Shown piece after piece: positions 38,420 through 61,745 of a stretch of 64,000 nucleotides of DNA. Position numbers and translations under genes: made by a program. The DNA is from Lasiosphaeria ovina (lineage: Eukaryota; Ascomycota; Sordariomycetes; Sordariales; Lasiosphaeriaceae), in NCBI GenBank assembly GCA_033439765.1, contig JAULSN010000008.1:2418001-2482000 (forward strand), in the 5' to 3' direction. The notes beneath the pieces are model-generated. The model did not search any database. It was not told the DNA's origin and saw only the letters and a list, made by a program, of their open reading frames with translations. Numbering within the stretch: position 1 is the stretch's first letter; each line of letters starts with the position of its first letter.

Positions 38420-38857
38420 GTGAACGCGTTGAAGGCTGGCAGAGAGGCAGCGACCCTACTTGGTTCAGATACCCATGGCATCCATCGTTTGCTCGCGATC
38501 GTCCGCAATGGGCGAGCTGCTTGATTACCGTCGATATTCGGCGGACCAGCTGGAACCTGCTGTGCCCAGCCTCTACCCAGCCAACTGCTCTGTAATTACT
38601 CACAATCACAGTCGTGTTCCTTCTCGAGTGGCCTTTGCTCTCTTTGGCTGGTTCCAGCGGTCATATTTTTCGCCGGGGATTTGCGTCATCGAATGCTCAG
38701 CCACAAGGCTCTGTGGTTATGCTTCGCTTGTTCGCTGTATTGGTTTTCAACCGCCACCAACCATGTGGCCTTTAGAGGTCGACTCTTCGTTCACAGTCTC
38801 AAAATATAGACCAAAGGGCCTTTGGGACTGCTCGCCGTTGCCGCTGCTGCGGTCAGG
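38420..38857. other. Convergent 3' region, no gene seen
   Basis: Between the nucleotidase (plus) and the four-span membrane protein (minus). No features beyond presumed 3' ends. Confidence 0.5.
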
Positions 38858-39775
38858 CTAAGGTCTTTCAGACGCGGCACGAAGCTGGGCGGCTTCCGCC
38901 AATATCAAAGTCGGGCTGGCGCGCTTTGTGGCACCTGCATAGGGCGTCATCAACAGCACCGCCGGCGGCTCTGCTTCGGGCAGAAGGGTAGTGGTCATCA
39001 GTGACAAGGTCTTTCTCTCCCGCTCTCGCCTGTCTATTTTGTTGCAAATAAAGAAGAAGAAGTAAAATGAGTGGATGATCCTGTGCAATTCATGACCTGT
39101 TGTCAGCGAGTCTCCCCAACACAGACAAAGGACGCAAGCTAGTTCGCGACCGGGGACAACTTACATGACAGCAATCAGAAAGCAGGCGCCGACTATTTCG
39201 CGTGCGCCGGCTCCTGGGAAGGTGTCGCGACTTTCGATGCCAAAGACCACATCGACGAGCATGAAGCCAGTGGTGATGGCTGCCCCCAAGAACAGAGCGC
39301 CATCCACCCATACGTGGATTATGGGCGAGATGCCTTCGCCGCGGCGGAGGCAGCCAAGCATGATGAGCTCGGCTGCATTCCACATGACAACCAGGGGGCA
39401 CTGGGCAAGAGATGTTGTCAGCACACGAAGGGGCCCTTCTTGGCGATCTGGCGCAGACAGAGAGCTTGAACGCACCACCACCAGCGCCGGAACCAGCCGG
39501 TCAGGGGCAAAGACGCCATTCTGGTCTGCTAGGATGGACAAGGCGATGAAGGCGACGATGGCGGCGAATGTGAGGGACGAGACGCGCAGGATGATGCCGC
39601 CGGTGAGGAGTCTGCCCCCGGCGCGGTCACGGCGGCCATCTCGGTTCCACTGGCCGAGATCAACGGAAGAGAGACGGATGCTGCTGTGCGGGAGCCCTTC
39701 CAGCCAGTTCTCGACCGTCGGATTGAATACGGGGGGCGGCCGGGCCGGAGGATGGTGGAACGCTTGCCGCCGCAT
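38858..39775 (-). CDS. Four-span integral membrane protein, unknown function, 2 exons
   Basis: Exons are 39775-39165 and 39080-38858 (277 residues). Four hydrophobic segments are clear: ILRVSSLTFAAIVAFIALSI, SLAQCPLVVMWNAAELIML, VWVDGALFLGAAITTGFML and IVGACFLIAVMIIHSFYFFF. The last one is created across the splice junction, which supports the intron. A basic patch follows (DRREREREK-like, about residue 220), then a cytosolic tail. The layout recalls fungal MARVEL-like or other small tetraspan proteins, but I see no diagnostic motif. The N-terminal 65 residues are polar and poorly structured. A downstream start is possible. Confidence 0.68.
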
Positions 39776-41603
39776 TGGGGAGCAGCCGGCGATGGGCGCG
39801 TCTGTGAGGCCTTGACGTCTGCGACTCCAGCCTCACGGTATTGACCTTCAAGTTGTCGGTCTTGGGATGCCTGGGGGCGAGATGTAAATACATAGGGCGT
39901 CTGGTCGTGAGGAAAACGTGTGCGTGTGGAGCGTCCGCCACCTCGGACCAAGGAGAGATCTGGTACGCCGGACCGTTGTGGCCTCAGAGCCAATGCATCA
40001 GCGGCGCAAGTCTAGTGTGACGTCGGGGGCGCTGGGTTGCTTGGTCCGGTGAAGGGTGGTTGCGGCGTAGTCGTAGGCGAGATCAGATATGAAACCAAGC
40101 GTCAAGCTATCCCCTGCTCTTCTTGATTGATTCCACCAGTGACGGGTCCCCAGAGCCGTGAGCTTGTTCCTTTGCACGGCACAGGAGCAATGTTTAGGTA
40201 TGGCATACCACCAACTCAGGTGCGTGCGGCCTGTTGCATCTCCAGCTTCGAGGTTGGTGCTGGCCAGCCAGAGCCATTTCAACGAGGAACGAACGACGAC
40301 AAAGCAGCCCGGATCTTCCTTGGGCGGGGAGGGATGTCATCGAGTCGGGTGCTGGCAAAAGGGGTCGACGCGCATGTCCGCTCATTCAATACGAGGAGAG
40401 CATCCGTAGGGACCAATCGACTGTGCTGTTCTCGGTTTGGCATTTGGCTAGATCTGGTTCTTGTGGATCGCAACATGCATGACGAAAGCTCCGAAGTTGG
40501 AAGGTGGGGGACAGCCAAGGTGGGATTGCTCCCGTCTGGAGTTCCCCCCAACCAACGGGCCTCAGAGCGCTGAGAGAGGTGGGAACCAGGTAGCCGCCTC
40601 GCCCCAACAGCATCCACAGCATTAGGCGGTTTGTGCCGATGCCCGCCCTGCAATTTCCCACCCCTCAGCCGTTTCATCCCGGAGGCACAGCAGCCCCCTG
40701 CACGCGTGGACGGAGTACCCGAGCAACAATTGCCCTGGCTCTTGAAATACTTGATCTACAGCACAGTCCAATCTCTGTATGATTTAAAGCCCAAGTTGAC
40801 AGTCAATCTATTCATTCGCCCTGCAGAAGCCTTTGCCAGTGACTGTATGCGAGGGAGAGGGCGGGGGCACTCTTGGACTTTGTCTGGACTGGGCGTCCAA
40901 ACATCTATTGCGGCATTGCCTCTCATCTCAATGGCGATGAAGGGAGCTTTTAGGAATATATAGGAAGAACCATGTCGTTTTATATTAGGGATCCTAATAG
41001 TTATTGTCTCTCTTGGGCAAAAACATTCAGGGTCAGCCGTGAGGTAAATGAGGGCTTTCTTGTCCAGGAACATGTCCCGCCAACAGACACTAAGGCAGGG
41101 GTCGAGTTGTACAAGGCGCAGCCGGTAATGTGCTAGGTCGGGAACGAGCTTCCTTTTCGAGTGCCTACCTGCCCCTGCTTAGGGGGTACTTGATAATATG
41201 AAAAGTTAGACTCAAGACTGGCTGGAGTCAAGAAGAGTGGGACATCCTGCGCGCCTCCAGCGATTCCATGAGGGCGGTCTTATATTTTGATTTGCGGTCT
41301 CTCCCTCCACACATCTTCAGATCGTTTTTTTGTTCGACTAATAGGCCGTGCTTGTATGAGATGCCGTAGGCTGTTCCTTGCATATAGAATGAGTCTTTAT
41401 TAAGCACTTAAAGAAAGATGCATGCCACTCACCGTTCAGGACTTAGGAGTGGTTTGCTGACAAGTCTTTGGAGCAGTCAACTCCTGAGTTTGTTCCGGCT
41501 GACATAGACTCTAATTATATCACTCCTAAGCTTATTAACGACTAGTTCTAAATTTTCCTCACAATCTTAGCCAAATAATTACATCTCAGCCGTTCACGGC
41601 GCA
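39776..41603. other. Intergenic, no supported gene
   Basis: GC-rich near the membrane-protein start and AT-richer from about 40950, where stops are dense. No gene or RNA signature recognised. Confidence 0.45.
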
Positions 41604-42879
41604 TCATTGCGCTATGATCTCATCGATCCAAGTCTTGGTCTTCTCCGCAACCTCCTCGCTATGCTCTGATTTTCAAAGCACGTCAGTTCTCCATACCTAG
41701 ACAAGGGTGTTGCGTAGCTAGGGGACCTCATGCGAAAGGGGTGGTGTACTCACTGATGCAAAAGTCGTGCGGAATATTGCCCTCGTCAATGACGATGCGC
41801 GTGCGGCTCATTTGGTTTTGGCGCCTTCGCGAGATAAACTCATCACGGCATTTCTTGGCAACCCACTCGTCCTTCCTCCCAAAGAAGATATAGAACTTCT
41901 CTCCGCCGGGCGTCGTCGTCGCCGTCTTTGTCTCGGCTGCCCCCTCGGCGGGTCCCGCATCCTTCGCGACGGAATCCTCGCCGCCATCAACAGCTGCGGC
42001 TTCCTCTTCAATCTCCCAGATGTCTTCGCTCCACCTCTCTTCGGTTATGGCGCGCATCTCGTCCTTGCCGAGGTGCAGCGCCTGCCAGAGGCCGTCACGG
42101 CTTTTCAGCCAGCGCACAACTATGGCGGCCGCGTCGGGAGGGTGGCCGACTATGCGACGGACAATGAAGTTCAGTAGGCCGGTTGGTACCAGGTCTAGGA
42201 AGCGCCTGGCGATGCGGTGGGCGTTCCGGTCCAGGAACGGTGAGGTGCGCAGGTTGTTCATCCTCTTCCCGCTGGGAGAGAGGGCAATGTTGGTGACGGT
42301 GGCGAAGAGCAGGATGCCGGCTTTCAAGTTGACGTTGGCGAAGCTGTCGACGGTGCCGTCGCTCTGGGCCGCCGCAGTCCCCTCCCGGATGGCTTTGCGC
42401 AGCAGGTGGTGGCGGTGGAAGAGCTCGACGGCGATGTAGGTGCCGACCGAATGGCCGGCGAGGATGACCTCGTCAAAGGGCTTCTTCTCGGCCTGTTCGC
42501 TCGCCGGATCAGCCATGCTCACCTGGGCCAGGCGGTCGTAGCAGTGGCGGACTTGGTCCTCGAGGACAAAGGGCTCGGTACCGGGGGCCGAGCCAAACGG
42601 GTCATGGTCGGCGTCGTCGAAGCCGAGCAGGTTCGCCGAGTAGATGTGGAAAGACCGGTCACATCCGGCCCGGGCCTCGGTCTCGTCCAGCAGGCGCCGC
42701 AAGGTGGTGAAGAAGGGAATGTAAAAGTCAACGACGCCGGGATTGCCGGTGATGTAGTAGATAAGACAGCGCTTCCGGCCGCCTCCCGTGTTTGATGAAG
42801 GATACTCGAGGAAGGGCACCTTCTGTGCTGTCCTCAGCGCCCTGCTCCTGTCTTCTGTGTTGTCCTCCATTGGTAACAA
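41604..42879 (-). CDS. Lipid droplet-associated serine hydrolase (LDAH/DUF2305 family), 2 exons
   Basis: Alpha/beta-hydrolase of the LDAH family (yeast homologue YPR147C), associated with lipid droplets and proposed to act on sterol esters or other lipids. Exons are 42879-41754 and 41665-41604 (395 residues). Visible features: CLIYYITGNPGVVDFYIPFF, the family's strand and oxyanion segment after strand 1; SANLLGFDDADHD; the nucleophile elbow ILAGHSVGTYIAVEL with Ser in GHSVG; FYIFFGRKDEWV (acid region); and IPHDFCIKHSEEVAE, giving the catalytic His (HDFC) just before the second exon. A Glu/Ala/Thr-rich insert of about 40 residues precedes the last strand. Starting at the second Met (three residues later) is equally possible. 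All three catalytic elements are present. Confidence 0.9.
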
Positions 42880-43698
42880 CTTTGGCTGGGCGCAGGCAGC
42901 AGCAGGAACGGGAACCGCCGTGTGGTGAAGCCGTGAAGGTATTCAAGCTCCAATTGAACCTCGGCTCAAGAAATGTGAAACAAGAACTTGAAGGGCTGCC
43001 CGGGTTTCTTCTCAATGCGATATCTCAATCTTCGTTTTCTGACCCACTGTGGTTGTTCTCTGCGGAAGACGTGGGCTATCCGGGTCGTTTGGGGACGGGT
43101 GAAGTCGATAGGGAGGACGGGAACAAGAGTTGAAGTCAAGCTCTGAGAAAGGCGCCAATTTGCCCCCCCTGTAAATTGTGGGTACAGTGCGTCCTTTGAC
43201 CAACCAACGACCAACCTCGGATTTTCCAAAACGAAAAGCACGAGACCACCAACGGCCGCGCGTCGAAGGATGAGTGTGGAGCACACCACTAACCCTAACC
43301 CTCACCCGGAAGATGGCCGTGGTTGACCCATCGGAGACGGAGCGGGATAGTGGTTGACCCGCCGGATGAGGAACGGAATAAGTCAACGAGATGCCGAGCC
43401 AACAGCTATCATTGGGTGGCATCGGAGGCATGATGCATCAGCATTTGGGTCCTCTCCGACTTTGCATGACCAGTGATGACTGATGAGCTGGGGCAACATG
43501 TTTGAGCAACATGTTCGCCTGTCAGGCGGATCATGCACCAGAGCTCTGTCAATAATGTTAATTATGAGGATGATTAAAGGCTACTTGTAACGGTGACTTG
43601 TAACAGAGAAAGCAGCATCCATTCCATTCCATTCTCACTCCGAGTGACCGAGTTCCAGGACGGGGAGCCATCGTCCATCGAGTACCTTCTTCCACAAT
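42880..43698. other. Intergenic, no gene seen
   Basis: Promoter side of the hydrolase and 3' side of the first cyanovirin-like gene. Two telomere-like CCCTAA units occur by chance at about 43291-43305. Confidence 0.45.
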
Positions 43699-44953
43699 CT
43701 ATTCCGCACAGCTGTTCAAGCCCAGCTCCTTGGCCTTCGCCTTGCCACCGCAGTAGAGCACTCCGCCAACGTTCCAGATCCCCGAGGCTGTTGCGCATCG
43801 ACTGGTTAGCTCCCACATCAGTTTGCCGATTCGAAGGGACTGGGCTCTTACTGATGTCAACGGCCGTGATATTCGGCTTGCCGTCCGACTGCCAGCAAGT
43901 GCACTTGATGTTGCGGTTGATTGCGTCAAATTCGCAGTCCGTGCAAGTTTCCCACCACTTGCCCGCATTGTCTGCCACCGGGACCAGAGTCCCGTCATTA
44001 TTCGAAAAGCAGTTCCTAAGGCCAAGCTTGGAGCATCGGTAGGTTGGGGATCCCGCATTCGAGTTTCGGCAGGCTGCCTGGATGTACGCGTTCTTGCCCG
44101 GCGAGTTCTCGTCGTTGAGGTCCAGGTCCACCTGAATGACTGCCTGGCTGTTAGCTGAAACCCTGGCGTGGCTGTTACTCTCAGAGCCTGACTCACAATT
44201 GCACGTCTCAATGACCGAAGGAGGCGGAGTCAAACCCGCCAAGTCAACTTCATGAAGCGCGACAACATCGGCATAGGGTCCATGGGCCGAAGCCTGGGGG
44301 GACTTAGACACAGTGGAGCTGGATGTCCCGGATGACCATGAAATTGCCGGATTTTCAAACGGCTTCTTCTTTGGGAACTTCGGGTTGGGGGTGTTGCCAA
44401 ACGGGGGGACACCGTATGGCCAGGGGGGAGGAAAGGGCGAGGGTGGTGTCGGCGTTGGCCGAGGGCTCATCACTGCCGTCTTTCTAGGGAATGCAGCTGT
44501 CGACCGAGAAGCCGAGACAGGGGCCCGAGTTGGAGTCATGAAAGGGGTCACGATGGGCGGTCGTCGCCAAGGATCTCGCCAAGGAACTATTTGCCTCGCG
44601 GGAGGGTAAACTGGACGTGCCCATCGTGTGGGCCTCTGCAACGGCCGACCTGCATTGGGCGACAAGGTCTGTCGAGTAGGAGCCGGGAACAAAGACCCTT
44701 GCTTCGTGGGAGCAGAGCGCGAAGAGCTCTTTTGAGTAGAAGCAGGGAGCGAAGAGCTCTGTTGAGTGGCGGAAGGGCGCGGATTGCCTTGTCGAGTCGG
44801 AGCAGGGAGAGCGAGCGATGAGATTTGCTGTGGAAGTGGCCGCCGGACAGGAGGATCGATGTTGGCATCTCGTGGGCCTACAACGCCGGGCACACCAAGC
44901 ACGCTGTCCAGGCCGCCGAGGAGCATGAAACCGATGATCGGAGTAACCCGCAT
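43699..44953 (-). CDS. Secreted Pro-rich protein with C-terminal cyanovirin-N-like (CVNH) domain, 2 exons
   Basis: Exons are 44953-43852 and 43787-43699, giving about 396 residues from the chosen start. I chose the Met of MRVTPIIGFMLLGG because it begins a good secretion signal. An in-frame upstream Met at 45121 would add 56 residues with another hydrophobic stretch. After the signal come about 220 residues of Pro/Ser/Thr/Arg-rich low complexity with repeated SLPAPTRQ-type units. The C-terminal domain shows QVDLDLN, IQAACRN, LGLRNCFSNNDGTLVPV, WWETCTDCEF, CTCWQSDG and, after a phase-1 intron, SGIWNVGGVLYCGG. This is the two-lobed CVNH pattern (sugar-binding lectin fold in the founding member). 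The ending and intron position match the divergent neighbour at 45816. CVNH assignment is by pattern. Confidence 0.65.
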
Positions 44954-45815
44954 GATGGGCCAAGTGAGCGAGCGGAAGAGAAAATAAAAGATGCAAATGA
45001 CAAGAAACGGGATGCCCAGCAAGGTAGCGATGCTTGTGTCCTGGCGTGGCGTGGACAAGCTCTCTGCTCGTGGGAATGGAAAAGATGCTGCGGGTGTTGT
45101 AAAAGCCAAGAAATAAGACAAGGAGGGGAAAGGGAAAGTTGGAGTACTTAATACCTGCTAGGCGGTCTAGGCTCAAAGGGCCAAAGGCAAGTGCACATGA
45201 GTGTTTTGTTGGGCTGCGTCTTGAATGAGGCATTGAATTGCTGAGCGGGAAAGAGCTATCAAGGCAACCCAACCCCGAGCACCCCGACTGCCCGGGAGCG
45301 AAGGAAATGGGACTAAGCTCTTTCCCAAGTTGGGAGGCTCGATTGGCAGCACCTCGTGGGAAAGAATTCAATGGCCTCCACTAGCCTGACTCTTGCTGGT
45401 TTCTGCTTCCTGGTGTTGCCAACGTCTACCACGGCCGGCAGGCAGGTGCCCAGGCTGCTTCGTTCCGCCCAATCAGAATGAAAAGGTAAAGGTCAACACA
45501 TGGATGCTGGGAAGCAAGACCAGGAGCTCTCTGTTGCAAAGTGGAGCGTCAACTGCTTCCGTGGCTCCCCCCAAAAATGCCCGCAGCCCTCCAATATCTA
45601 AACCCCGGATGGCAGTGGCTACCTTACCTACTGCTACGGTGGTCTTATTCCTGTCAGATTCAGAAGCCAGGCAGCGATTCTCCCTCCGGCAGTTTCCACT
45701 CTCCGACACTTAACTACATATCTGATCTGATCTCTGCTCCGCAAGCGCAAATCTGAAGCCCCGACCCTGCATCGAGACTGCCTGATATACAAGACAGCTC
45801 GGGCATCTCGGCAAT
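44954..45815. other. Shared divergent promoter of the CVNH-like pair
   Basis: About 860 bases between the starts of two divergently transcribed related genes. An in-frame upstream Met (45121) of the minus-strand gene falls here. A bidirectional promoter is plausible but no specific elements were identified. Confidence 0.45.
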
Positions 45816-46538
45816 ATGGAGCTGAAGAAGATTCTCGACTTCCTCTCCGTCGCACTGACGACACCCCCGCCGTCGATTCTCGACTTCCGCCGCGACACCA
45901 ACATCACGCAGCCCTCGCGTCAAGGCGGCTTCATGCAAAGCTGCGAAGGCAAACAACCATCTATATGCTTTTTGCTTTGCTTCCCTTTCCATTGCTCGGT
46001 ATCCGTGATGCCGTATGCTGACTTGCATCTCCATATCTAGAGATCCGCGCATATACCGACAAGTTCTACGGCCAAGTTAGCTCGGCCTTCAACTTGGCTG
46101 CAGCGTGTGGCAACTCCACAAGCGCCGCCACCGGTGTTTCGAATCTGACCTGCACCTACCTCAACCTCAGCCCCTGCTACAGCAACAACCTTGGCGTGCT
46201 TGAACCGCTCTGGTCCAACGCCACCTGGCAGGGAAACTTTACCGAAACCTGCAAGAACTGTTCACTTGTTACCAAGAGCAACGATGCACTCATGGGCTGC
46301 GACTGCCTGAATGTCTCGGCCAGCGGTTCCGTGGAGTTTGTCCGCGCACAGGTCAACCTCAGTAAGCACCTTCCTTTGGCAACCACCCCATGGGACAATT
46401 GATCAGGCGCCTGCTAACACGCGGACAGACGACCACATCTGGAACGATAGCCACGGAATCCTAGCGTGCGGTGACTGGTTCGGCAAGCCCTGGCCACGGT
46501 GCGAGGCTATCGGGACGTGCATTGAGCCTTTCTGTTGA
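45816..46538 (+). CDS. Cyanovirin-N-like (CVNH) domain protein, 3 exons
   Basis: Exons are 45816-45948, 46041-46361 and 46429-46538 (187 residues). The domain starts at GGFMQSCEEIRAY and continues with FNLAAACGNS, LNLSPCYSNNLGVLEPL, WQGNFTETCKNCSLV, CDCLNVS and, after a phase-1 intron, NDHIWNDSHGILACGDW. This repeats the Cys and Asn-rich pattern of CVNH lectin-like domains and matches the last part of the neighbour at 43699, including the phase of the final intron. Many N-glycosylation sequons (NST, NLT, NAT, NFT, NCS) suggest secretion, yet the N-terminus is not a clear signal peptide, so the true start may lie elsewhere. Intron 1 appears to use a GC donor (GAAG|GCAAAC). Biological role unknown. 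Sugar binding is a family-level guess. Confidence 0.62.
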
Positions 46539-52015: not shown

Positions 52016-53591
52016 TCGGCATATGATAATAGTTAGCACAAAATAAATCAAACAGCATCATTGAGTGTTTCATTATCTACAAATGCCATCATTCCGGCCT
52101 CTGCTGTGCTCTGGGGCCCAAAATCCGGCTCGGTTTTCTACCGTACGGTCTGCTGTCTAGCGCTCCTCGCCAAGTGCCTGCCCTGTACTCTACCCATCAT
52201 CACTTCGGACTAAAACAAACCAGGGCGTTGCCGCAGAGCAACACCCACTACACATCAAGCACCAACTACTTCGTCACCACCAACGTCAAGAATCACTAAG
52301 CTAGGTCACCGTGCTGGGTAGAATTCTACGTGAATAGCTGTATGCCCGCCTAGATACCTACCTATCTACCCCTCCCTTGGTCTCCCCCCCTCTCCCAACC
52401 CTGGCACACCACGACCGTCTGTATCTTTGCCTGCACCAGCGCCAGTCCTGGCCCGGCAGCGTGCACCTTGATAGCCAGCCCGGCTTGCGGGTGTGGGTCC
52501 ACCCCCCGAGCACAATCAGCTGCGGCCTCACCTGGCCTCGACGCACTAGTATTTAACGTCCTCCACCTTCGTCCCCTGCTCAACCTTTCACCTTTCTGCA
52601 CACAACACATTGGGATATTCTTTTTCTCGCCTCTATCTTTCAACCTTCGACTTCGTCATCGCCAACTTCGACATGGCTTGCTCGCCTGGCTACTAAGCAA
52701 GTCAATATATATCTCCTTGTCTTCGTCGTCGTCGGCACTGCCTATGCCTTCACTTTCTGCCATGCCTCCATGTTTCTCTGCTGAGCAGCAGCCCCGTTTG
52801 GGCCAGCCTTTAGCGAGTCCTTTTCCCATTTTCGTCCCATATGCCCGCGCCGCTACCTGATTTTGGTTGGCTGGCTGGTTGGCCTTCACACATTTCTTTT
52901 CGTTTCCTTTTTTTTCCCTGGGCAAGGCAGGCCCCACACTTCCTAATCACCCGTTCTACTTCCCTCTCTATTTATTTCACCCCCCGAACATCGGTGCTGG
53001 CTGGATTTCTTCTTTCCTTCCACACACATTTCGGGCTTCGTCCTCTTCGGCATATTCGTCTTGCCTCGGGCTTGCTTTCCCTTTTACTTCCTTTCTGCCT
53101 CGCCTTCATCGACTTACACTCACGTCTTCCTTCGACCTGGCATGCCTTTCGGCGTTGCTAGGTCGACTGCGGCGGAGAGGTACGTCTGCACCAAGATTTC
53201 CCCATCTCGCACCATTTCTCTGCCCTCTGCGGCTGCACAAACATCATTTGAAAATCCGTTTGATTTGATTTTTCCTTTCGCGTCTTCGCTGCTCGCAAGC
53301 CTTTTTCTGTCTCGCGTCATCAGCAGCCGACCTCGACTTTGCACCTTTCCTCTCCCGCTTTCTGCCTTCGCATCACATCATCTCGCGTGGCCTTTGAGCC
53401 CATTGCATTTTCGCCATGTTCTAACTTCTTTCTTCTTTCCATAGACGGCCACGGCCACGACGCGGTACAGCCTCCTGAACCGGTCAGGATTCGACAGGCT
53501 CGCCGACGCTCGCCTCTCTATCATCTTTCCTCAGCTAAGTTTCCCTTCCCCTTATATCCGTTGATTGCCATAAATGTTTTGGCTAAATCTC

Positions 53592-53696
53592 GGGCCGGGA
53601 TGATGAAAGCAAAGAACAGTCCTTAGATTCTTCAGCTTCGGCTGGAATCGATGAGGATCAAACCCACTTTCTACACTCTTGCAAACTGACCGGCCC
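53592..53696 (+). ncRNA. Box C/D snoRNA (sno-1), 7-bp terminal stem
   Basis: Box C ATGATGA (53600-53606) and box D CTGA (53686-53689) are brought together by a perfect 7-bp stem, GGGCCGG with CCGGCCC. A D'-like CTGG (53642) and a C' GATGAGG (about 53650) lie in the right order. The guide before D is CACTCTTGCAAA. I could not place the target in rRNA by eye. It is probably intronic, in an intron that ends in TTTGGCAG at 53940. Confidence 0.85.
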
Positions 53697-53768
53697 AAAA
53701 AACCAGCTTCCTAGCCATCTCGGTCATTGGAAGCTGGCGTGTCTCTAGGTTGTCATTTCTTTCTCTCC

Positions 53769-53887
53769 CTCCTCTGTGACGATGTTTGTTCAGCAACCTG
53801 AGCTTTGATTCCCAACGGTTCCTCTTCCTTCGGGTCGACGTAGCTGGTGGCAGTCGCTCACGGGGGCGCGAACACTACTGAGAGGAG
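53769..53887 (+). ncRNA. Box C/D snoRNA (sno-2), 6-bp terminal stem
   Basis: Variant box C GTGACGA (53776-53782) and box D CTGA (53878-53881) are flanked by CTCCTC and GAGGAG, a perfect 6-bp stem. A D' CTGA sits at 53798. The D guide is GCGCGAACACTA. It shares an intron with sno-1, so that intron would carry two snoRNAs unless an unseen exon separates them. Confidence 0.72.
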
Positions 53888-54040
53888 TTTCATGGGATTG
53901 ATCTAATTGACTTGTTGGTTTTTCTGTTGCTGTTTGGCAGCCTTTCAGCGATCGTCGCGCTCGATCGCGTGTCACACTCAGGTATGTTTTCTGTTTTCTC
54001 TTTCTACTGATTCCTTTCCCTGTGGCGCCAGTCGGCCTGC

Positions 54041-54143
54041 CCCCGATGATGATTCAAAATTTCCGGTATCTGGAGAAACCCAGCCTCGCCTTGCGATGGT
54101 TGTGGATTTGGTGATGATATCCAACGGCAATTTTTCTGAGGGG
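54041..54143 (+). ncRNA. Box C/D snoRNA (sno-3) with complete C, D', C', D set
   Basis: C ATGATGA (54046), D' CTGG (54070), C' GTGATGA (54111) and D CTGA (54136) occur in order. The ends CCCC and GGGG pair. The guide before D is ACGGCAATTTTT and that before D' is AATTTCCGGTAT. It lies downstream of the GTATGT donor at 53982, so it is intronic. Confidence 0.85.
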
Positions 54144-54292
54144 ACCTTTTGTGGGTAATGTGGGATTTGCTGGCTGACGCCATGTCTTGTTGGCTAATGA
54201 TGGAGCATAGAGAAAACCAGTCTTGCTCTTTGGACGAGACTTGGGATTCACGTTGTTTCCATTTGGTGGTTGGCTCATATTCGTGTGTCTTA

Positions 54293-54421
54293 TGCCGATG
54301 ATGATGATCATTGAAAGGAACAGCTTGAGGTCTTGCGGATTTGAAGCCGGTCTTGAGACAGAGTCTCAGGAACCCCTTAGAACCGCTCATTCCAATGAAA
54401 CCTACAGATCTTACTGAGGCA
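54293..54421 (+). ncRNA. Box C/D snoRNA (sno-4), paralogue of sno-5
   Basis: C box within CGATGATGATGA (54298 or 54301), D box CTGA at 54414. The ends TGCC and GGCA form a 4-bp stem. A C'-like AATGAAA follows CATTCC, as in sno-5. The D guide is ACAGATCTTA. An intron acceptor after GCTAAC and a T-run follows at 54489. Confidence 0.72.
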
Positions 54422-54620
54422 CCTAGACGAGATCATCGTTTCCAGCCAGCAGTTTCTGTTCTTGCTTGCTAACTTCTTTTTTTTTCCAGTGCAAATATTC
54501 GACTCGACTTTCTCTGACCTTCAGTTCAACAAGCCGATTGGGAGCCGATCGCCATTGACGATCGATCTCAAGGCAAGTTTCCCTACATTCCATTTCCTCT
54601 TCCATGATGACCCAGCTTCG

Positions 54621-54730
54621 TGCCGATGATGAGAACCATCAAGCCTAGGAACGGCACCGCGGAGAGTTCCTGACAATTGCAGAAACCTCCAGCACGTCAT
54701 TCCAGTGACGACAATGATACTACTGAGGCA
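54621..54730 (+). ncRNA. Box C/D snoRNA (sno-5) with complete C, D', C', D set
   Basis: C ATGATGA (54626), D' CTGA (54670), C' GTGACGA (54705), D CTGA (54723), closed by TGCC/GGCA. It lies inside the GC-AG intron 54573-54804. The end segment CATTCCAGTGACGA...ACTGAGGCA parallels sno-4, so the two are duplicates whose guides have diverged. Confidence 0.85.
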
Positions 54731-55271
54731 CATTGAGCATTTCGCATCATCTTCGTTTTGGCAAAAGGATTTTGATCTTGTTTTCTAACTTGCTGTTTTC
54801 TTCAGGTCAATATCTCAATCCGCTCGACATTCCACTTGCTCCATTCTCAAGCTGAGTCCATCCTGCCATTCTGCCGTGTTGCTTCCTGGTCTTGGCCAGA
54901 GCAGCCGCCCTTTGGTTTGCTGACACTTTCCGACACATCTTCCGAGCTCTGCCGGCAGCCGACAAAAAAGGTACGTTGACTACTGTCTCTTTTCTTTCCT
55001 CTCCCTTCTCTTGCGTTTCGGCAATGATGAGGAAATGGATTCCCCTGTGACATTCCTTGACGACAAAAACATATGTCCTAATCCACATTTTTCTTCTTTT
55101 TTTCACGCGAGGACAACAGCAAGCTAACTTATCTTTTCTTCTCCATATAACTCGATCAGCCGCCATCAGCCTCGAACAAGCATCTCCAAAGTCGTCAGTC
55201 TTCCGACCGCAAGGGCAGAATCGGCCATCAAGAAATCGGTACGTTGGTGTCTCCCTTCCCTTCCTCTTCCA

Positions 55272-55340
55272 CGGCACCCATGATGAATGAAATGTTATTG
55301 CCATGATCTTTCATGATTTAAAAATTACAATCTGAGGCCT
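55272..55340 (+). ncRNA. Box C/D snoRNA candidate (sno-6)
   Basis: C ATGATGA (55280) and D CTGA (55332), 70 nt, inside an intron with GTACGTTGG donor at 55239 and GCTGACC...GCCAG end at 55402. The D guide is AAAAATTACAAT. The terminal stem is weak. Confidence 0.6.
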
Positions 55341-55496
55341 CCTATCCTTCATTTGTTCGGTTTTCATTTTCCGCTTGGATTTCGGGGCTGACCAGCTTTG
55401 CCAGACATATCCGGGCTTCCAGCGGCGAAGGCAAGGCTCGAACATGAAAAAAAAACCGGTACGTTGGCTCCTCTCTCTTCTTCTTTTCTTCTGCTT

Positions 55497-55565
55497 GGCA
55501 ACTACGTGTGATGACAACGTCGTTTTTCTTGACTTACCATGGAGAAAATTTTTCTATCTGATGCC
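55497..55565 (+). ncRNA. Box C/D snoRNA candidate (sno-7), paralogue of sno-8
   Basis: C GTGATGA (55508), D CTGA (55558). GGCA and TGCC can pair around the boxes with a bulge on the 5' side. It lies in an intron from 55459 (GTACGTTGG) to 55633 (CTTCTAG). It shares ACTTACCATG and neighbouring spacing with sno-8. Confidence 0.65.
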
Positions 55566-55710
55566 CTTTTTCCTTTTCCTTTGCTCGCTTTTCTACTTCT
55601 GCTTGGAATTCGGGGCTGACCATCTCCTTCTAGTTATATCAGCAGCGACGGCAAGGCTCCATCATCGAAAAACGGTACGTTGGCTTCTCTCCTTTCTTTT
55701 CCTCGACAGC

Positions 55711-55775
55711 TGCATGTGATGGCAAAACTCGCTCTTTTCAACTTACCATGAAGAAGAATTTTCGATCTGACGCAT
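55711..55775 (+). ncRNA. Box C/D snoRNA candidate (sno-8)
   Basis: C-like GTGATGG (55716) and D CTGA (55767) in the next intron, donor GTACGTTGG at 55674. The middle ACTTACCATG is identical to sno-7, but guide sequences next to D differ (AAGAATTTTCGAT against AAAATTTTTCTAT). Confidence 0.6.
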
Positions 55776-55978
55776 TCTTCGTTTTCCATGGCCCAATTTT
55801 CTACTTCCGCTTGGGATCCGACGCTGATTACTTCTCCTCCTCGCACAAATTTAGTCTAGGGCTTTTTTTTTCCCACCCGCAGCAGGCAAATATCAACCGC
55901 ACCACACCACGCACACAAATTCACACACAAGGTGCTTCGGCTTCCTATCTCTTCCTTTCTTTTCCCTGTACATTTTCT

Positions 55979-56051
55979 GCAACATGATGATTTAAAGCCT
56001 TTTAACCCATTGATTTCTACAATGATAACAAGTTCCCGATCTGAGGTTTGC
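55979..56051 (+). ncRNA. Box C/D snoRNA candidate (sno-9)
   Basis: C ATGATGA (55984), C'-like ATGATAA (56022), D CTGA (56041). Near-complementary ends GCAAC and GTTTGC. Intronic: donor GTGCTT at 55931, branch GCTAAC, acceptor GGATAG near 56145. The guide before D is AAGTTCCCGAT. Confidence 0.65.
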
Positions 56052-56370
56052 TTTTCTTCTGCCGGCTCGTCACTTTCTATCTTGCCTTCCATTCCGATTT
56101 CAGACTTGCTAACGACTTCATATTTTCCATATTCCTCATCGGATAGCTCGCGAGGACTCGCAGTCCAGCAAAATACTTCTTTCCGTTCCCCTCGAACCAT
56201 CGGTCGCCAGCAGCCGGCATCGCTTTCAGCAGCGCTAAGTCATTTCCTCGTGTCCAATCCTTTCGTCGCTGCCAGTCCAAGCTAACAATCTCTATCTTTT
56301 TACATATCAATCTCGTCTCGAATGCCTGGCCTCCATCTTGGACGGCCGGTGGAAAGCAACAAATTAGGGA

Positions 56371-57424
56371 GTCAAGCACATCCGTATCTGGCACATCAAT
56401 CACTTTTCGCTAATCTTTCTCTAGGAATTTCGCATCGCATTTCATTTCAGCGGACTACAATATCGGGGAGTAGAAACATCCATATCCATTTGATCATTGT
56501 TCATTTGCTGATATTTTCTTCTTCACAGGCATCTCTTTCCATCGTGGCTTCAGTAGCAAATGGATCACACAACATATCGGGGAGTCAAGCTATCCATTTC
56601 CCTTTGATCATGGCTTTCTCGCTGACAATCTTTTCTCCAGGCGGCACACATTAATCTCCTTCGGCCAAGGCCAGCAGCAGGAAAGTGGCATTCCCTTCCA
56701 AAGCAACTTCACTCTTTTCCCTCTCATGATGACATTCGCCGCCTCTTTCTGCTACAGCCGCTGCGCGGCTCTGTGGAAATGCGGTGTCTGATCCCCTCTT
56801 CCCTTTCTACACACCACGGTCTTATTCTTTTGAGATCCGAGCTGACTTCTTTTCTTTTTTTCCCAAGTCGACACATCCTGCACTTGCTTGCAATCCGCTG
56901 CCAGCTGCGACATGGAAATCGGGAAGTCAATACTCCACAGTCAATGTTCCTGTTCGTCGCTGATCATATTTTGCAGGTTTCTCGCTCCAATATCGGCACG
57001 CCATTCTGGCTATTAAATCTTTGGGAAGTCAATTCTCTTCAATCCATATCATTGTTCCTCGCTGACTATATTATCGCAGGCTTCTTCTACTCTTCGAATC
57101 TCTTTGGCTCGGCACAGCACTTGGATTAACACACTGAAAAGTTACTCCGCCTCCATCTTCCTCTTTGACATTTTACTGACCAGTTTGTCCTTCTAGATCT
57201 CATCGCCGGCATTGGCCAAGAGCCTCCAACAGGAAAGTGTCATCTTCTTTTCCCTTCCTTTCTTTCATATCCAATTGAATATCTCAGCTGACATCTTTTC
57301 TCCAGGTCCTGATCGAACACTCATTTCCTTTCCCGACTTCGTCCTCGAGGACCATGACAACAGAGAAGTTTCAAATCGACACCCCTCTTTGCAGTATAAA
57401 CATATCGCTAACATATATATCTAG
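56371..57424 (+). repeat. Array of tandem mini-introns and mini-exons
   Basis: Introns read off by branch and acceptor: 56371-56424, 56470-56528, 56584-56640, 56685-56867, 56926-56976, 57028-57079, 57141-57196, 57237-57305, 57368-57424. Apart from the one carrying a snoRNA candidate they are 51-69 nt, and the exons between them are 40-62 nt. Each has GCTGAY, ACTGAC or GCTAAY 12-20 nt before an AG. Exons tend to end GGGA or GGAAA, followed by donors such as GTCAAG, GTCAAT or GTCATA. The regular alternation and shared boundary sequences imply duplication of an intron-exon module. No exon set gives a long frame. Confidence 0.6.
56724..56793 (+). ncRNA. Box C/D snoRNA candidate (sno-10)
   Basis: C ATGATGA (56726) and D CTGA (56788) in the intron 56685-56867, the only long intron in the mini-intron array. 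No terminal stem is visible. The D guide is GAAATGCGGTGT. Confidence 0.5.
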
Positions 57425-57562
57425 CCTCGCCATCCTCTCGGAAACGATCTCAGCCAGCTAGCACTTGTCTTTCCTAGTCGACACATCACACACTCAGCCG
57501 GTCGGCCAGCAAGCCGAACAACAGGAAAGTCATATTCCCTTTTTCCCCATTCCCATTCCCAA

Positions 57563-57657
57563 TCCATGATGACAATGCCTCTTTCCTCGACGACCACTGG
57601 CGTAACTCCAGGGTAAAGGCCGCCAGGCGGTTGGCGAGGGGACATCGGCTCTGACTT
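57563..57657 (+). ncRNA. Box C/D snoRNA candidate (sno-11)
   Basis: C ATGATGA (57566), D CTGA (57651) in an intron from 57528 (GTCATA) to 57728 (CTTTAG). Strong internal GC complementarity (GGCCGCCAGGCGG) is unusual for a C/D RNA, so this could be another structured RNA or a longer chimera. Confidence 0.45.
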
Positions 57658-58130
57658 TCCTTCCTTCCCTTCGCTTTTCCCTTTCCTCTTTTCGCTGACC
57701 ACATCCGCTGACGTCTTTTACTCTTTAGAATCAATTGTCCTGTTTGGCTTCATGCCAATGTCCAGCGACAGTACTCTCTTTTCAAGCACACTCGCCAGCG
57801 ACCTGGCTTCGGGCGACAAAGAAGACATATCAAGGGGGCAGCCTTTTCAGTTTCTTCCCTTTTTCTTTGGACACTTCGCTGACATGATATGCTCTCTGGT
57901 CCTTTGGGTCGGAGAGTTCAGGGACCTCTTTTCAACCAAGCTTGAGTAAAAGCCTCTCTGTCTTGACAGCGGTTCGCTGCCAGATAGTCAATCACACATG
58001 CACACACATGTTTGGTACCGGTGGGAGTCGAGGGTATCTTGTGGGAAAGGATCTCAAGCACTGTGGGCATGTGGGCACCCACCGTGAGCACACATTGGGC
58101 ACCGTGGGATCTTCGAGGGCTTAGTTTACT

Positions 58131-58182
58131 GAGGGCACCGGGGGTTTGTGGGCCGAGGGCACCGGGGGTTTATGGGCCGAGG
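58131..58182. repeat. 24-bp tandem duplication
   Basis: The unit GAGGGCACCGGGGGTTT plus RTGGGCC occurs twice in tandem with one difference. The G-rich sequence immediately precedes sno-12. Confidence 0.9.
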
Positions 58183-58192
58183 ATACACTTTG

Positions 58193-58289
58193 CTTCGATG
58201 ATGAGAAATTGCGAGCGATCTAATTATCTGAACACTGGGCGCGTAAAGCGACCGTGATGATGATAACCCCAGAGACACTTTCTGAGAAG
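58193..58289 (+). ncRNA. Box C/D snoRNA (sno-12) with complete C, D', C', D set
   Basis: C ATGATGA (58198), D' CTGA (58228), C' GTGATGA (58254), D CTGA (58282). Ends CTTC and GAAG form a perfect stem next to the boxes. Guides: AGCGATCTAATTAT before D' and CAGAGACACTTT before D. This is one of the best candidates, although it has no obvious intron around it. Confidence 0.87.
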
Positions 58290-58339
58290 TCTAGATGCCC
58301 TCGCGGGCTTCTAGGTGTGTGGCTTCGTTTAGGATTCTT

Positions 58340-58625
58340 GGCTTTGGCCAATGAATAGGACCGAGTTGGATCAGTATGTCTCTGTGGGATCTGTTGGCTC
58401 GTGGCCTTGTGGGATTTGTTACCTTGTGGGATCAGCCGCCTTGTGGGTTATGTTGGCTCTTGCAATACGTGGTGGGTGGGAGGGAGAGGGTGAGTGTGGC
58501 TCGTTGCACATTCACCACTCTGATACAGGCAAATCGCCACACATCTGGAGATACATGGGAACTTCAAAATGGCTCGTGGTTGCTTGGGAGACCGTGATTG
58601 TGGCTCATTGCACATTCACTGCTTC
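58340..58625. repeat. Imperfect GT-rich and direct repeats
   Basis: GTGGGAT-type units recur between 58382 and 58450. GTGGCTCRTTGCACATTCAC occurs at about 58496 and 58604, 108 bp apart. No gene is evident. Confidence 0.6.
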
Positions 58626-58914
58626 GACAAACAGTCGAACCAATAGCTGTGGGAGGGAGGGCGGGCTATTGGGACCACAAACCTCGCCGACGACGCGGTC
58701 GAGGTTAGCTAGCAACGCGGGCTTTGAATCCGCTGCATCATGTTTGGGTTCTGGGGGGGAAAGTGTGGGCTCCGGGGGGAAAGCCAAGGTCCCCGGCTTT
58801 GTTTTTCTAAGAAAAGCACATTGCGTCGAATTGGACTCGACAACCATGACGGGAAAATGCTCTAAAACAAGTAAGTTGTCCTCCCCTCCCCCTCCTCTTC
58901 ACTCTCCCGGGTCT

Positions 58915-58990
58915 CGAAATGATGAACACTTTTACACATCTGACTTTGTCATGATGATTTTTCATTTGTACTTATTCCAACTGATATTTC
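58915..58990 (+). ncRNA. Box C/D snoRNA (sno-13) with complete C, D', C', D set
   Basis: C ATGATGA (58919), D' CTGA (58940), C' ATGATGA (58951), D CTGA (58981), compact and canonical. GAAA and TTTC close it. It sits in a textbook intron, 58871-59059, with GTAAGT donor, CGCTAACC branch and TTTAG acceptor, about 75 nt upstream of the acceptor. D guide: TGTACTTATTCCAA. D' guide: TTTTACACAT. Confidence 0.92.
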
Positions 58991-59442
58991 ACCCATCGAG
59001 CTCTTCGTTCTCCAGCCGCGCGCATTCACGTCAGATCGCTAACCTTCATATCTGTTTAGTGTGAGGCCCTCTTTGACGCTGTCATTCGGGGTCATGCCAA
59101 TCTTCTCTCGCGAGCTTCTCTTCGTGGCGGTCCGAACAGGATCTTCCTGCGGAGACGAAGCTCGCCCATAGTGTGCGTGCCGTTTTTCTTTGACCAGATT
59201 GCCCTCCCCCTTCCCTTCCCTTCCATTCCCTCCCCTCCAATATTATTATGTGCACCGTCAATGCTTGGGTACTGATCACAGGTTTACAAGGGCTGCCTCG
59301 ACACCACGGTGCGGGTGGCACGAGTCACGACGACCGGCAAAGAGGAGGAATCACAACTAGTCTAAACGCGGTCTGTACGCCCCCACCCCCCAAGCCCTGC
59401 CACTGAGAAAGAAGTTTATCCAGATGCTAATCACTCCAACAC

Positions 59443-59555
59443 AGACCCGGTGGCGATGATGAGTCTTAAGAAGTCAGGGACAAAGAGGTCGAGCTTGGCT
59501 GTAATGGCTTCGCGCGCTCCGAGTCTCCTGATACACAGACTGAGTCGCTGGGTCT
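59443..59555 (+). ncRNA. Box C/D snoRNA candidate (sno-14)
   Basis: C ATGATGA (59456), D-like CTGA at 59528 and 59540. AGACCC and GGGTCT can pair at the ends, but the 5' strand of this stem overlaps the predicted splice acceptor at 59444, so either the stem or the splice site is wrong. It is related to sno-15 and sno-16 by the GAGGTCGAGCTTG segment. Confidence 0.5.
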
Positions 59556-60018
59556 CCTTTTAGTCGGTCTATCTATCTTACTCGGTCTCGCACTAGTCTC
59601 GGGGCATCCATCGTCGGCGGAGCCCCGCCCAGGTCTGTGTTGTTTTGCTTGATCATATTGCCCCCCATTTTAGATAGAAACAAGCAGCATTGACATTTTG
59701 ATGCTGACCACTCTCCTGCCAACGCATGTCTAGGACCATGCAAACATGCCATGGTAGCGATGAATCTCCAGTGTTGAGGTCGAGCATTGCCGTTCTGGCT
59801 TTGCTCACAACGGCAGACCTCCAGCCTTTTGATCTTGAACGCCAAGACGACAATTGCACTTTCGATCTCGGGGCAACCATCGCATCATCATGGAAGCCCC
59901 GCCCAGGTCTGTGTTGTTTTGATTGACTCATATTGCCGCCCTAGTAGATATTTCAGCTCATGAAGTGTGGATGCTAATCACTTTGCCAAAATCCTTTAGG
60001 ACCGGTCAAAATTTCTCC

Positions 60019-60134
60019 TGGCAGTGATGAAATCTCTTGGTGAGTGAAGACCTTGGTCTGAAGTCAGCAAGAGGATGAGCTTCTCGCCGTCAAGGCAGTG
60101 CTCGCTCGACTATCTCCTTGAGATTGCTGAGCCA
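60019..60134 (+). ncRNA. Box C/D snoRNA (sno-15), exon-located
   Basis: C GTGATGA (60024), D' CTGA (60058), C'-like GATGAGC (about 60073), D CTGA (60127), closed by TGGC/GCCA. It lies within the predicted exon 60000-60242. The D guide is CTCCTTGAGATTG. Confidence 0.75.
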
Positions 60135-60600
60135 CTAAAGGGAGCCGGAACCGCCAAACCGAACCGCCAAACCGAATCGCCAGCTGACGCCGACACTCCC
60201 GGTCTTCTTCGGGGCAGCCTCCGCCACGGCTGCCCCGCCCAGGTCTGTGTTGTTTTGATTGACCACTATTGCCGCCCTTGTAGATAGGAAAGCTCTTGAA
60301 GTCCAGATGCTAATCACTTTTCCCCGGTTTCCCAGGTGAAATGTCTAGTGACACGAGCTGCAGCTTGCTGCCTCCGCCTCGCTCGCCAATGACAATGATC
60401 AACACCACGTAACGCAACGGAACTTTGAACCACAAATGCATGCGAGTTTGGGTCTTGGGGCTGTGTTTGCCGGAGGGAGCCCCCGCCAAGGTAATCTGTT
60501 GATGTTTGATGTTTCATTGACCATACTGCCGCCCAGTAGATAGACACTCCGTGACTTTCCTCATGCTAACTTTTTTTCTTTTTCCAGGTTCGAATCCCGG

Positions 60601-60702
60601 TGGCCGTGATGACATCTTGGTCTAAAGAGGTCGAGCTTGCCGTCAAGGCTCGCTCGCTCCAGCGACTGAGAGCCTAACCTTCGAGAAGGGAAGTCTGAGC
60701 CA
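60601..60702 (+). ncRNA. Box C/D snoRNA (sno-16), exon-located
   Basis: C GTGATGA (60606), CTGA at 60665 (D') and 60695 (D), closed by the same TGGC/GCCA ends as sno-15. It lies within the predicted exon 60588-60760. The D guide is CGAGAAGGGAAGT. Internal sequence is shared with sno-14 and sno-15. Confidence 0.72.
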
Positions 60703-60847
60703 ACTTGTCCACTCTCTGGGGGATCCTCTCGGGGCTACATTGGACGTAGCCCCCGCCAAGGTGATATGTTTCTATTCATTGATCATGCTACCCATCATTT
60801 TCATAAACAGCCCCTTGGCATCCCCATACTAACTTCTATTCTTCCAG

Positions 60848-61745
60848 CCAAGTAGGCAACACCAAGAGACCATCGCAAAGCCCCCACTAACAAACAGTTG
60901 GGCATTAGATTTTTGACATCATCGGGTATTGAAGGGGTGAAAAGTACCATAACATTAGCAACCACAAGAACAACACCAATGCGAGCCACAGGCGATCCTT
61001 ACAGGGTACTGGTACAGGAGTTCATGGCCAGGTAGTCAATATATCAATGCAAAAGGCACTATGCGTGCACCAGTCTCGGGATCTCAGTTCATGGTAAAAG
61101 ACGTGGATCTTAAAGAAAAGTAAAAAAGAAGGTAAAGAGAGATGCCAGCCTCAAATCAGAGGGAGAGTGGGCCGCTCATCTTACATGAGGTGAGCAGGCC
61201 AAGGGAAGAGGAAAATACGAAAATATTATGTTATATTTCGTCTGCTTCAATAAGACTTGCCTTAAGGAGAGATTCCACAGTTCGATTTATCACAAAAGTG
61301 ACATGGCTCATACCCATCACCACGTACACATTAAAGGTTGACACAGGCATTTGCCGCTGTACAGCAAAAAGTCAAAACAACTAAACGGCACCGACAGAGT
61401 CATACCACGAAAATATTATACTAGATAACATCGGGGGAGGATATAATTAAACCCTTGTTATCCGTCCCTGAACCCCTAATCAGTATCAATAAATCCTATA
61501 GTATTTAATCAAATAAGGTAAGGCACGACAAGACAAGCAAGCAAGGCAATCAAAGAGAAGCAAGCAAGGCGTAGAGCACAAGACGATATGCATTCGCGAG
61601 GATCAGTCCTATCTATTAGAGACTTCCATCCTCCGACGTGGGAAACCAACCTTCAAAAACCTCCCTGTGAGAGGAAAGAAAGGTTGGGCAAAACCACGCC
61701 AATATCATCCACCGCACTAACCATGCTCTATCTTCCTATAAAGGC
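60848..61745. other. Intergenic, AT-rich
   Basis: The presumed 3' end of the host transcript is followed by AT-rich sequence. AAGCAAGCAAGGC recurs at about 61535 and 61558. No gene seen. Confidence 0.45.

Follow-up and report, generated by a model that had tools for sequence, protein, structure and literature searches.

A putative non-coding host gene for box C/D small nucleolar RNAs, probably enlarged by tandem duplication, in Lasiosphaeria ovina

Introduction

Is a stretch of fungal DNA that is crowded with C and D boxes a host gene for small nucleolar RNAs (snoRNAs), and, if so, what would these RNAs guide? The question is raised by the interval 53100-60850 on the plus strand of a 64-kb window, which corresponds to C31:2418001-2482000 of the 51.7 Mb assembly of Lasiosphaeria ovina, a fungus of the order Sordariales related to Neurospora. 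Box C/D snoRNAs are stable RNAs bound by fibrillarin, Nop56, Nop58, and Snu13, and their terminal stem joins the C and D boxes into a kink-turn. A first-pass annotation of the window had proposed a dense fungal C/D snoRNA host gene, which box density, stems, and intron geometry make the best-supported reading of the sequence. According to our analysis, the locus is probably (about 0.72) a non-coding, spliced host gene of the UHG/gas5 type which has been enlarged by tandem duplication of exon-intron units.

Results

The locus contains 21 C boxes (RTGATGA) on the plus strand and 1 on the minus strand, while 300 dinucleotide shuffles of 53100-60850 gave a mean of 0.73 (standard deviation 0.86, maximum 4). 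The dense boxes claimed by the first-pass annotation are thus present, with a bias to the plus strand, and the outcome that it had named as speaking against the claim, a box density no higher than in shuffled sequence, did not occur. By a first rule, a C box was combined with CTGA and a terminal stem in 8 cases (shuffle mean 0.06, maximum 2). By a second rule, which demanded CTGA 55-160 nt after the C box and a terminal stem of at least 4 bp, 17 of the 21 C boxes were followed by CTGA and 7 also had the stem. As genomic background we used 22 stretches of the L. ovina assembly, all contig starts, amounting to 432,000 strand-bases. They contain 58 RTGATGA, 12 with CTGA and 2 with CTGA and stem by the second rule, which corresponds to 1.04, 0.22, and 0.04 per 7751 bases, and their densest 7.75 kb holds 8 RTGATGA, compared with 21 in the locus. 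The window outside the locus (112,498 strand-bases) has 24 C boxes, 4 with CTGA and none with a stem by the same rule. Taken by itself, CTGA is only weakly enriched (50 versus 39.6 +/- 5.8 in shuffles), and many of these words are branch-point-like CTGAC or CTGAT. One C/D-like candidate with a 4-bp stem was seen on the minus strand outside the locus, within window positions 38755-46506.

We counted 18 elements, S1, S1b, and S2 to S17, all on the plus strand. Both boxes are exact in 14 of them (S1, S2, S3, S4, S6, S7, S9, S10, S11, S12, S13, S14, S16, and S17), with C (RUGAUGA) close to the 5' end and D (CUGA) close to the 3' end; S1b, S5, S8, and S15 are partial. The first-pass annotation had put the number of elements with both boxes at about fifteen. 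Its five quoted terminal stems are all present, one of them (CTCCTC/GAGGAG) beside an off-consensus C box, whereas the full C-D'-C'-D order, said to occur in several elements, is clear with exact boxes in only two, at 58192-58295 (S12) and 58912-58990 (S13).

S1 (53592-53696; C 53600, D 53686) has a 7-bp stem GGGCCGG/CCGGCCC (53592/53690), an inner hairpin, and no clear intron donor. S1b (53769-53887) combines the C box GTGACGA and a D box at 53878 with the 6-bp stem CTCCTC/GAGGAG (53769/53882) and has no guide match. A called intron at 53982-54489 holds both S2 (54040-54145; C 54046, a second C-like box at 54111, D 54136, stem CCCC/GGGG) and S3 (54290-54423; C 54298, D 54414, stem TGCC/GGCA at 54293). 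S4 (54618-54733; C 54626, D 54723, stem GTGCC/GGCAC), a paralogue of S3, lies in a called GC-AG intron at 54573-54805. The next four elements are S5 (55018-55080; C 55024, D box not found) in the intron 54971-55159, S6 (55274-55342; C 55280, D 55332), with a sub-threshold SNORD37 match, in an intron from 55239 to ~55404, S7 (55500-55570; C 55508, D 55558) in the intron 55459-55633, and its paralogue S8 (55706-55780; C box GTGATGG at 55716, D 55767) in the intron 55675-55854. They are followed by S9 (55978-56050; C 55984, D 56041; intron ~55932-56146, donor GTGCTT), S10 (56720-56800; C 56726, D 56788; donor GTGGCA at ~56685), which has a strong inner hairpin, and S11 (57560-57660; C 57566, D 57651; donor GTCATA at ~57529). 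S12 (58192-58295) has C 58198, D' 58228, C' 58254, D 58282, and the stem CTTC/GAAG (58193); S13 (58912-58990), with C 58919, D' 58940, C' 58951, and D 58981, lies in the intron 58871-59059.

The last four elements fall in predicted exons. They are S14 (59446-59555; C 59456, D 59540, 10-bp stem including 3 GU pairs), S15 (59752-59870; GCGATGA at 59757, no CTGA), S16 (60016-60140; C 60024, CTGA at 60058 and 60127, stem TGGC/GCCA at 60019), and S17 (60598-60705; C 60606, CTGA at 60666 and 60695, stem TGGC/GCCA at 60601). S6, S7, S9, S10, S11, and S13 show a terminal stem by neither rule. When 11 elements were folded, S1 (z -2.68), S3 (z -2.41), S4 (z -2.85), S10 (z -3.27), and S16 scored better than shuffles (z -2.26 to -3.27).

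Splice signals are plentiful on the plus strand, as the first reading of the locus had stated. Donors, branch points, and acceptors delimit a proposed non-coding host transcript at 53100-60847, with the first clear donor at 53180 and the last clear acceptor at 60847. Introns called mechanically from a canonical donor, branch point, and acceptor number 10 in the locus, compared with 0 on the plus strand of 1-52500 and 3 on the minus strand of the 64 kb. A C box lies 36-66 nt past the donor in 6 of the 10, a CTGA lies 48-66 nt ahead of the branch point in 7, and 5 have both; 2000 shuffles of the intron interiors gave 0.05, 1.2, and 0.005, respectively, and never more than 1 with both. By hand, the distance from donor to C box is 64 nt in S2, 53 nt in S4 and S5, 41 nt in S6, S8, and S10, 49 nt in S7, 52 nt in S9, 37 nt in S11, and 48 nt in S13, and the D box precedes the branch point by 43-67 nt in S3, S4, S6 to S11, and S13. 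These distances match those expected of intronic box C/D snoRNAs: in Neurospora crassa the usual distance of intronic snoRNAs from the 5' splice site is 41-60 nt (PMC2780460), and a review names ~50 nt upstream of the branch point as the optimum (PMC8162545). The species' own U14 locus agrees, the C box of its first snoRNA lying 54 nt past the donor and the D box 65 nt before the branch point. In this respect the locus resembles UHG-like genes, whose intronic snoRNAs keep a fixed spacing to the splice signals; S14 to S17 do not fit this geometry.

A spliced transcript without a long conserved open reading frame (ORF), a further UHG-like trait, is predicted as well. The longest plus-strand ORF of the locus encodes 237 amino acids (aa). 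It matched no Pfam family at E <= 0.001, and none of 369 candidates proved a homologue at E <= 0.1, in keeping with the earlier statement that the locus lacks a coding frame. A comparison with viral contigs yielded nothing further.

Guides were sought in all 18 elements (17 together and S1b separately) as pairings of ~10-21 bp in which the target nucleotide lies 5 nt upstream of D or D'. The targets were the species' own 18S (minus the group I intron), 5.8S, 25S nt 1-722, and U2, U5, and U6; own 25S beyond nt 722 was not found in the assembly, and for that part we used a provisional yeast 25S sequence of 3396 nt. The provisional sequence aligns with L029 and the own 25S over pieces of 45-1235 nt at 73-93% identity, plus short chance matches. 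The D guide of S13 pairs with own 18S over 15 bp (1 GU), placing D+5 at A506, and the D' guide of S12 pairs with it over 13 bp (1 GU), placing D'+5 at U755; in yeast numbering these sites are ~511 and ~759. With exact CTGA boxes (21), the S13 score of 14.3 was reached in 13 of 1000 target shuffles, and a second-best score of at least 12.3 in 8. When one D mismatch was allowed, the S13 level was reached in 5 of 200 shuffles and the second-best level in 4. By these counts S13, and S12 and S13 as a pair, are significant at ~0.01-0.02. Scanned in the same way as a control, the own U14 locus returned its known 25S G2395 guide first (12.3) and its 18S C414 guide second (12.0), in yeast numbering. 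Homologues of these two guides are listed as CD16 and CD37 in Table 1 of PMC2780460, and the N. crassa table, in the part accessible, contains neither the S12 nor the S13 site.

An assignment of S12 and S13 as homologues of snR53 and snR41 was rejected, since those sites map to own 18S 792 and 536, not to 755 and 506. Antisense matches at any position, such as one of S3 to U2 (14 bp), were also rejected: without the D-box rule, 6 elements attained 11.3 where the mean was 5.3, which is chance level. S3 and S4 both keep TCATTCCA (54380-54400 and 54690-54710), complementary to the 18S segment paired by the S13 guide, again at chance level.

Part of the element set appears to have grown by tandem duplication of exon-intron units of ~210-340 nt. 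The introns at 54971-56146 align with one another, the CTGA lining up in 4 of the 5, and S3/S4 and S7/S8 are paralogous pairs. At 59445-60847, on the plus strand, there are five tandem exon-intron units with introns of 87-101 nt and with exons that terminate in a GGGGC..GCCCC hairpin preceding the donor; S14 to S17 lie 12-25 nt past a predicted 3' splice site, and the fourth exon unit has no C box. As judged by eye, hairpin pairs 6 and 7 change on both sides between units 3 and 5 (A-U to U-A and G-C to A-U); pair 6 does not form in units 1 and 2, nor does pair 7 in units 2 and 4. The aligned units have 53-65% mean column identity. Repeat-induced point mutation (RIP) is reported, in the accessible text of PMC2780460, to need ~400 bp, and the unit spacing of ~210-340 nt is below this length. 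Searched against the genome, 53560-54420 and 59390-60890 found only themselves, with repeat counts that are lower bounds for 59390-60890.

Several further features were seen within the locus. S7 and S8 share ACTTACCATG (55520-55545 and 55729-55754); their ACTTACC is the complement of the donor word GGTAAGT and stands directly before a D'-like ATGG/ATGA. Before S10 and between S10 and S11, 56350-57430 holds a tandem series of short units, ~50-60 nt each, that look like introns, have weak donors (GGGGAGTC and GGGAAGTC), and lack a C box. Around S12, 58010-58620 carries G-rich repeats of the GTGGGATC/GGGCACCG type, whereas the remainder of the locus is pyrimidine-rich. Just 5' of S17, AGGTTCGAATCCC at 60586-60600 resembles a transfer RNA (tRNA) T-arm or B box; ARAGORN found no tRNA in the window.

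A 380-aa ORF of the window, which belongs to the ABC-F/ARB1 family, shares 100% identity with a protein of Lasiosphaeria ovina and 99% with an L. miniovina protein. The group I intron inside the 18S gene lies at L006 7804-8170 (G000:C25; Rfam RF00028, 70 bits). A 55-nt 25S fragment at L032 1463-1517 (G000:C9, near 201,586) stands apart from the ribosomal DNA (rDNA) and stops in the conserved core; an rDNA-targeting retroelement may have left it behind. Above the Rfam cut-off, the genome has seven matches to the U2 small nuclear RNA (snRNA) gene, L030 among them, and nine to U6.

Discussion

The locus combines boxes, stems, intron geometry, paralogous copies, and two complementarities to 18S ribosomal RNA (rRNA), and the case made by boxes and geometry is strong. 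Under the host-gene reading, a single precursor would be transcribed across the locus, and splicing would free introns with a C/D element ~37-64 nt past the donor and ~43-67 nt before the branch point. C/D core proteins would bind the intronic element, and debranching and trimming would leave the mature ribonucleoprotein. The role of S12 and S13 would be to direct 2'-O-methylation to lineage-specific sites of 18S rRNA, and the other sixteen may be orphans or freshly diverged or decaying copies. S14 to S17 are predicted to be exonic C/D-like repeats, which may or may not be released.

A number of results weigh against a working host gene. Sixteen of the 18 elements have no guide above chance against own 18S, 5.8S, 25S nt 1-722, U2, U5, U6, and the provisional yeast 25S. 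They therefore look orphan, which agrees with the guess in the first-pass annotation that many would be; its proposed check of guides against 18S, 25S, and snRNAs succeeded for S13 and the S12-S13 pair on 18S and gave chance results for these sixteen (with the provisional yeast 25S beyond nt 722). S12 alone is not significant, since its 12.3 was reached in 110 of the 1000 target shuffles and its level in 47 of the 200 with one D mismatch. S13 itself is weakened if its D box is disregarded, because 41 of 200 shuffles attained 14.3 once the D-box rule was dropped. Of the ten intron pairings, two are in doubt: the one at 55239 took the branch point of the next intron and so borrows the D box of S7 (measured from its own, nearer branch point, its own D is 55 nt away), and the one at 58490 has its acceptor in common with 58871. 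S9, S10, and S11 have donors that depart from the canonical form, S10 lacks a YAG acceptor, and no clear host intron is seen for S1, S1b, and S12. The folds of S2, S11, S12, S13, S14, and S17 are no better than shuffles (z -1.12 to 0.28). The Rfam search of the window, finally, gave no match at gathering level. We do not count this silence against snoRNAs, since the species' own U14 also falls below its cut-off (58.6 versus 64). At permissive E-values, 52500-61500 gave 10 matches, 9 of them to C/D families and all well under the cut-off; a SNORD15 family search gave no match, nor did its control.

The alternative that survives best is that the elements are mostly snoRNA pseudogenes, in which case tandem exon-intron duplication inflated an ancestral host gene that was small and had few working guides (S12 and S13), and most of the copies are now functionless and in decay. 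The partial copies S5 (no D), S8 (GTGATGG), and S15 (neither exact box), the fourth exon unit without a C box, and the guides above chance in only 2 of 18 elements speak for this account. Both exact boxes are nevertheless kept in 14 of 18, and the intron geometry is retained across diverged paralogues; both count against it, because decay should erode them, and we regard the pseudogene reading as possible but doubtful.

Rather less likely is that the locus is a nursery of orphan C/D snoRNAs, where duplications below the length required by RIP keep the boxes and splicing geometry while the guides diverge, forming a reservoir that acts on non-ribosomal RNAs or on lineage-specific rRNA sites. Pre-mRNA splice sites may be an example of a non-ribosomal target, given the match of ACTTACC in S7 and S8 to GGTAAGT.

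It is unlikely that the elements are ordinary guides which our scan missed and that the orphans pair with the missing parts of own 25S or with other snRNAs or tRNAs. The scan covered own 25S up to nt 722 and, among the snRNAs, U2, U5, and U6, and it tolerated at most one mismatch in D' boxes that can be degenerate. On the other hand, the provisional yeast 25S recovered the G2395 guide known from the control locus, the 25S segments that carry methylation are for the most part conserved, and antisense matches at any position stayed at chance.

Still less probable is a long non-coding RNA which keeps C/D modules in its exons (S14 to S17) and acts whole, for instance by binding C/D core proteins, with snoRNA release being secondary. 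That S14 to S17 sit just past predicted 3' splice sites, within exons that carry recurring hairpins, would suit it, and sno-lncRNAs and LoNA are treated in a review (PMC8162545). The first two thirds of the locus, however, show the intronic geometry of released snoRNAs, and the exon boundaries are predictions. Chance boxes in pyrimidine-rich sequence are very improbable: CTGA is weakly enriched and overlaps branch-point words, but the C boxes (21 versus 0.73 +/- 0.86), the introns with both boxes (5 versus 0.005), and the stemmed elements (7 versus 0.04 per 7.75 kb in the same genome) are far beyond it.

Taken as a UHG-like host gene, the locus resembles the box C/D snoRNA clusters I-V of N. 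crassa as described in the accessible text of Liu et al. 2009 (PMC2780460), which have a non-coding spliced host with short ORFs and mainly intronic snoRNAs, for the most part 41-60 nt from the 5' splice site; one snoRNA there (CD6) is encoded in an exon. According to the same text, those five clusters are conserved with yeast, only 2 of 55 C/D snoRNAs are called orphans, and snoRNA genes are mostly singletons, whereas the L. ovina locus has an above-chance guide in 2 of 18 elements and holds paralogous copies. The cluster on chromosome V of Aspergillus nidulans, in the portion of PMC4046813 available, has seven introns with one read peak each and heavy alternative splicing. It is likewise non-coding, with no ORF that can be reconstructed. 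The L. ovina locus differs in having ~18 predicted elements, of which four fall in predicted exons and several belong to tandem paralogous units. Its size, its share of orphans, and its origin by tandem duplication appear to set it apart from both, within what these sources cover; our literature search found no fungal host gene of this size, which does not equal absence from print. The own U14 (SNORD14) locus (G000:C27:104966-105069) is alike in the spacing of its first snoRNA and differs in having two known guides in 3.1 kb and one exact RTGATGA.

What orphan C/D arrays do is not settled, and the best-known examples come from mammals. The SNORD115 and SNORD116 copies are near-identical, many, and imprinted; near-identical tandem copies are absent at the L. 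ovina locus, whose units have diverged. Shared with these arrays (PMC8162545) are repeated units, a predicted non-coding host, and, apparently, intronic C/D snoRNAs without an rRNA target: 16 of 18 elements had no guide above chance in a scan against rRNA, with own 25S incomplete, and against U2, U5, and U6. The SNORD116 genes lie ~250 nt past the donor according to the same source, and the L. ovina spacing is short. If our reading is true, a large, mostly orphan array in a filamentous ascomycete would allow direct tests of orphan snoRNA function and of the origin of new guides in a genome on which RIP acts.

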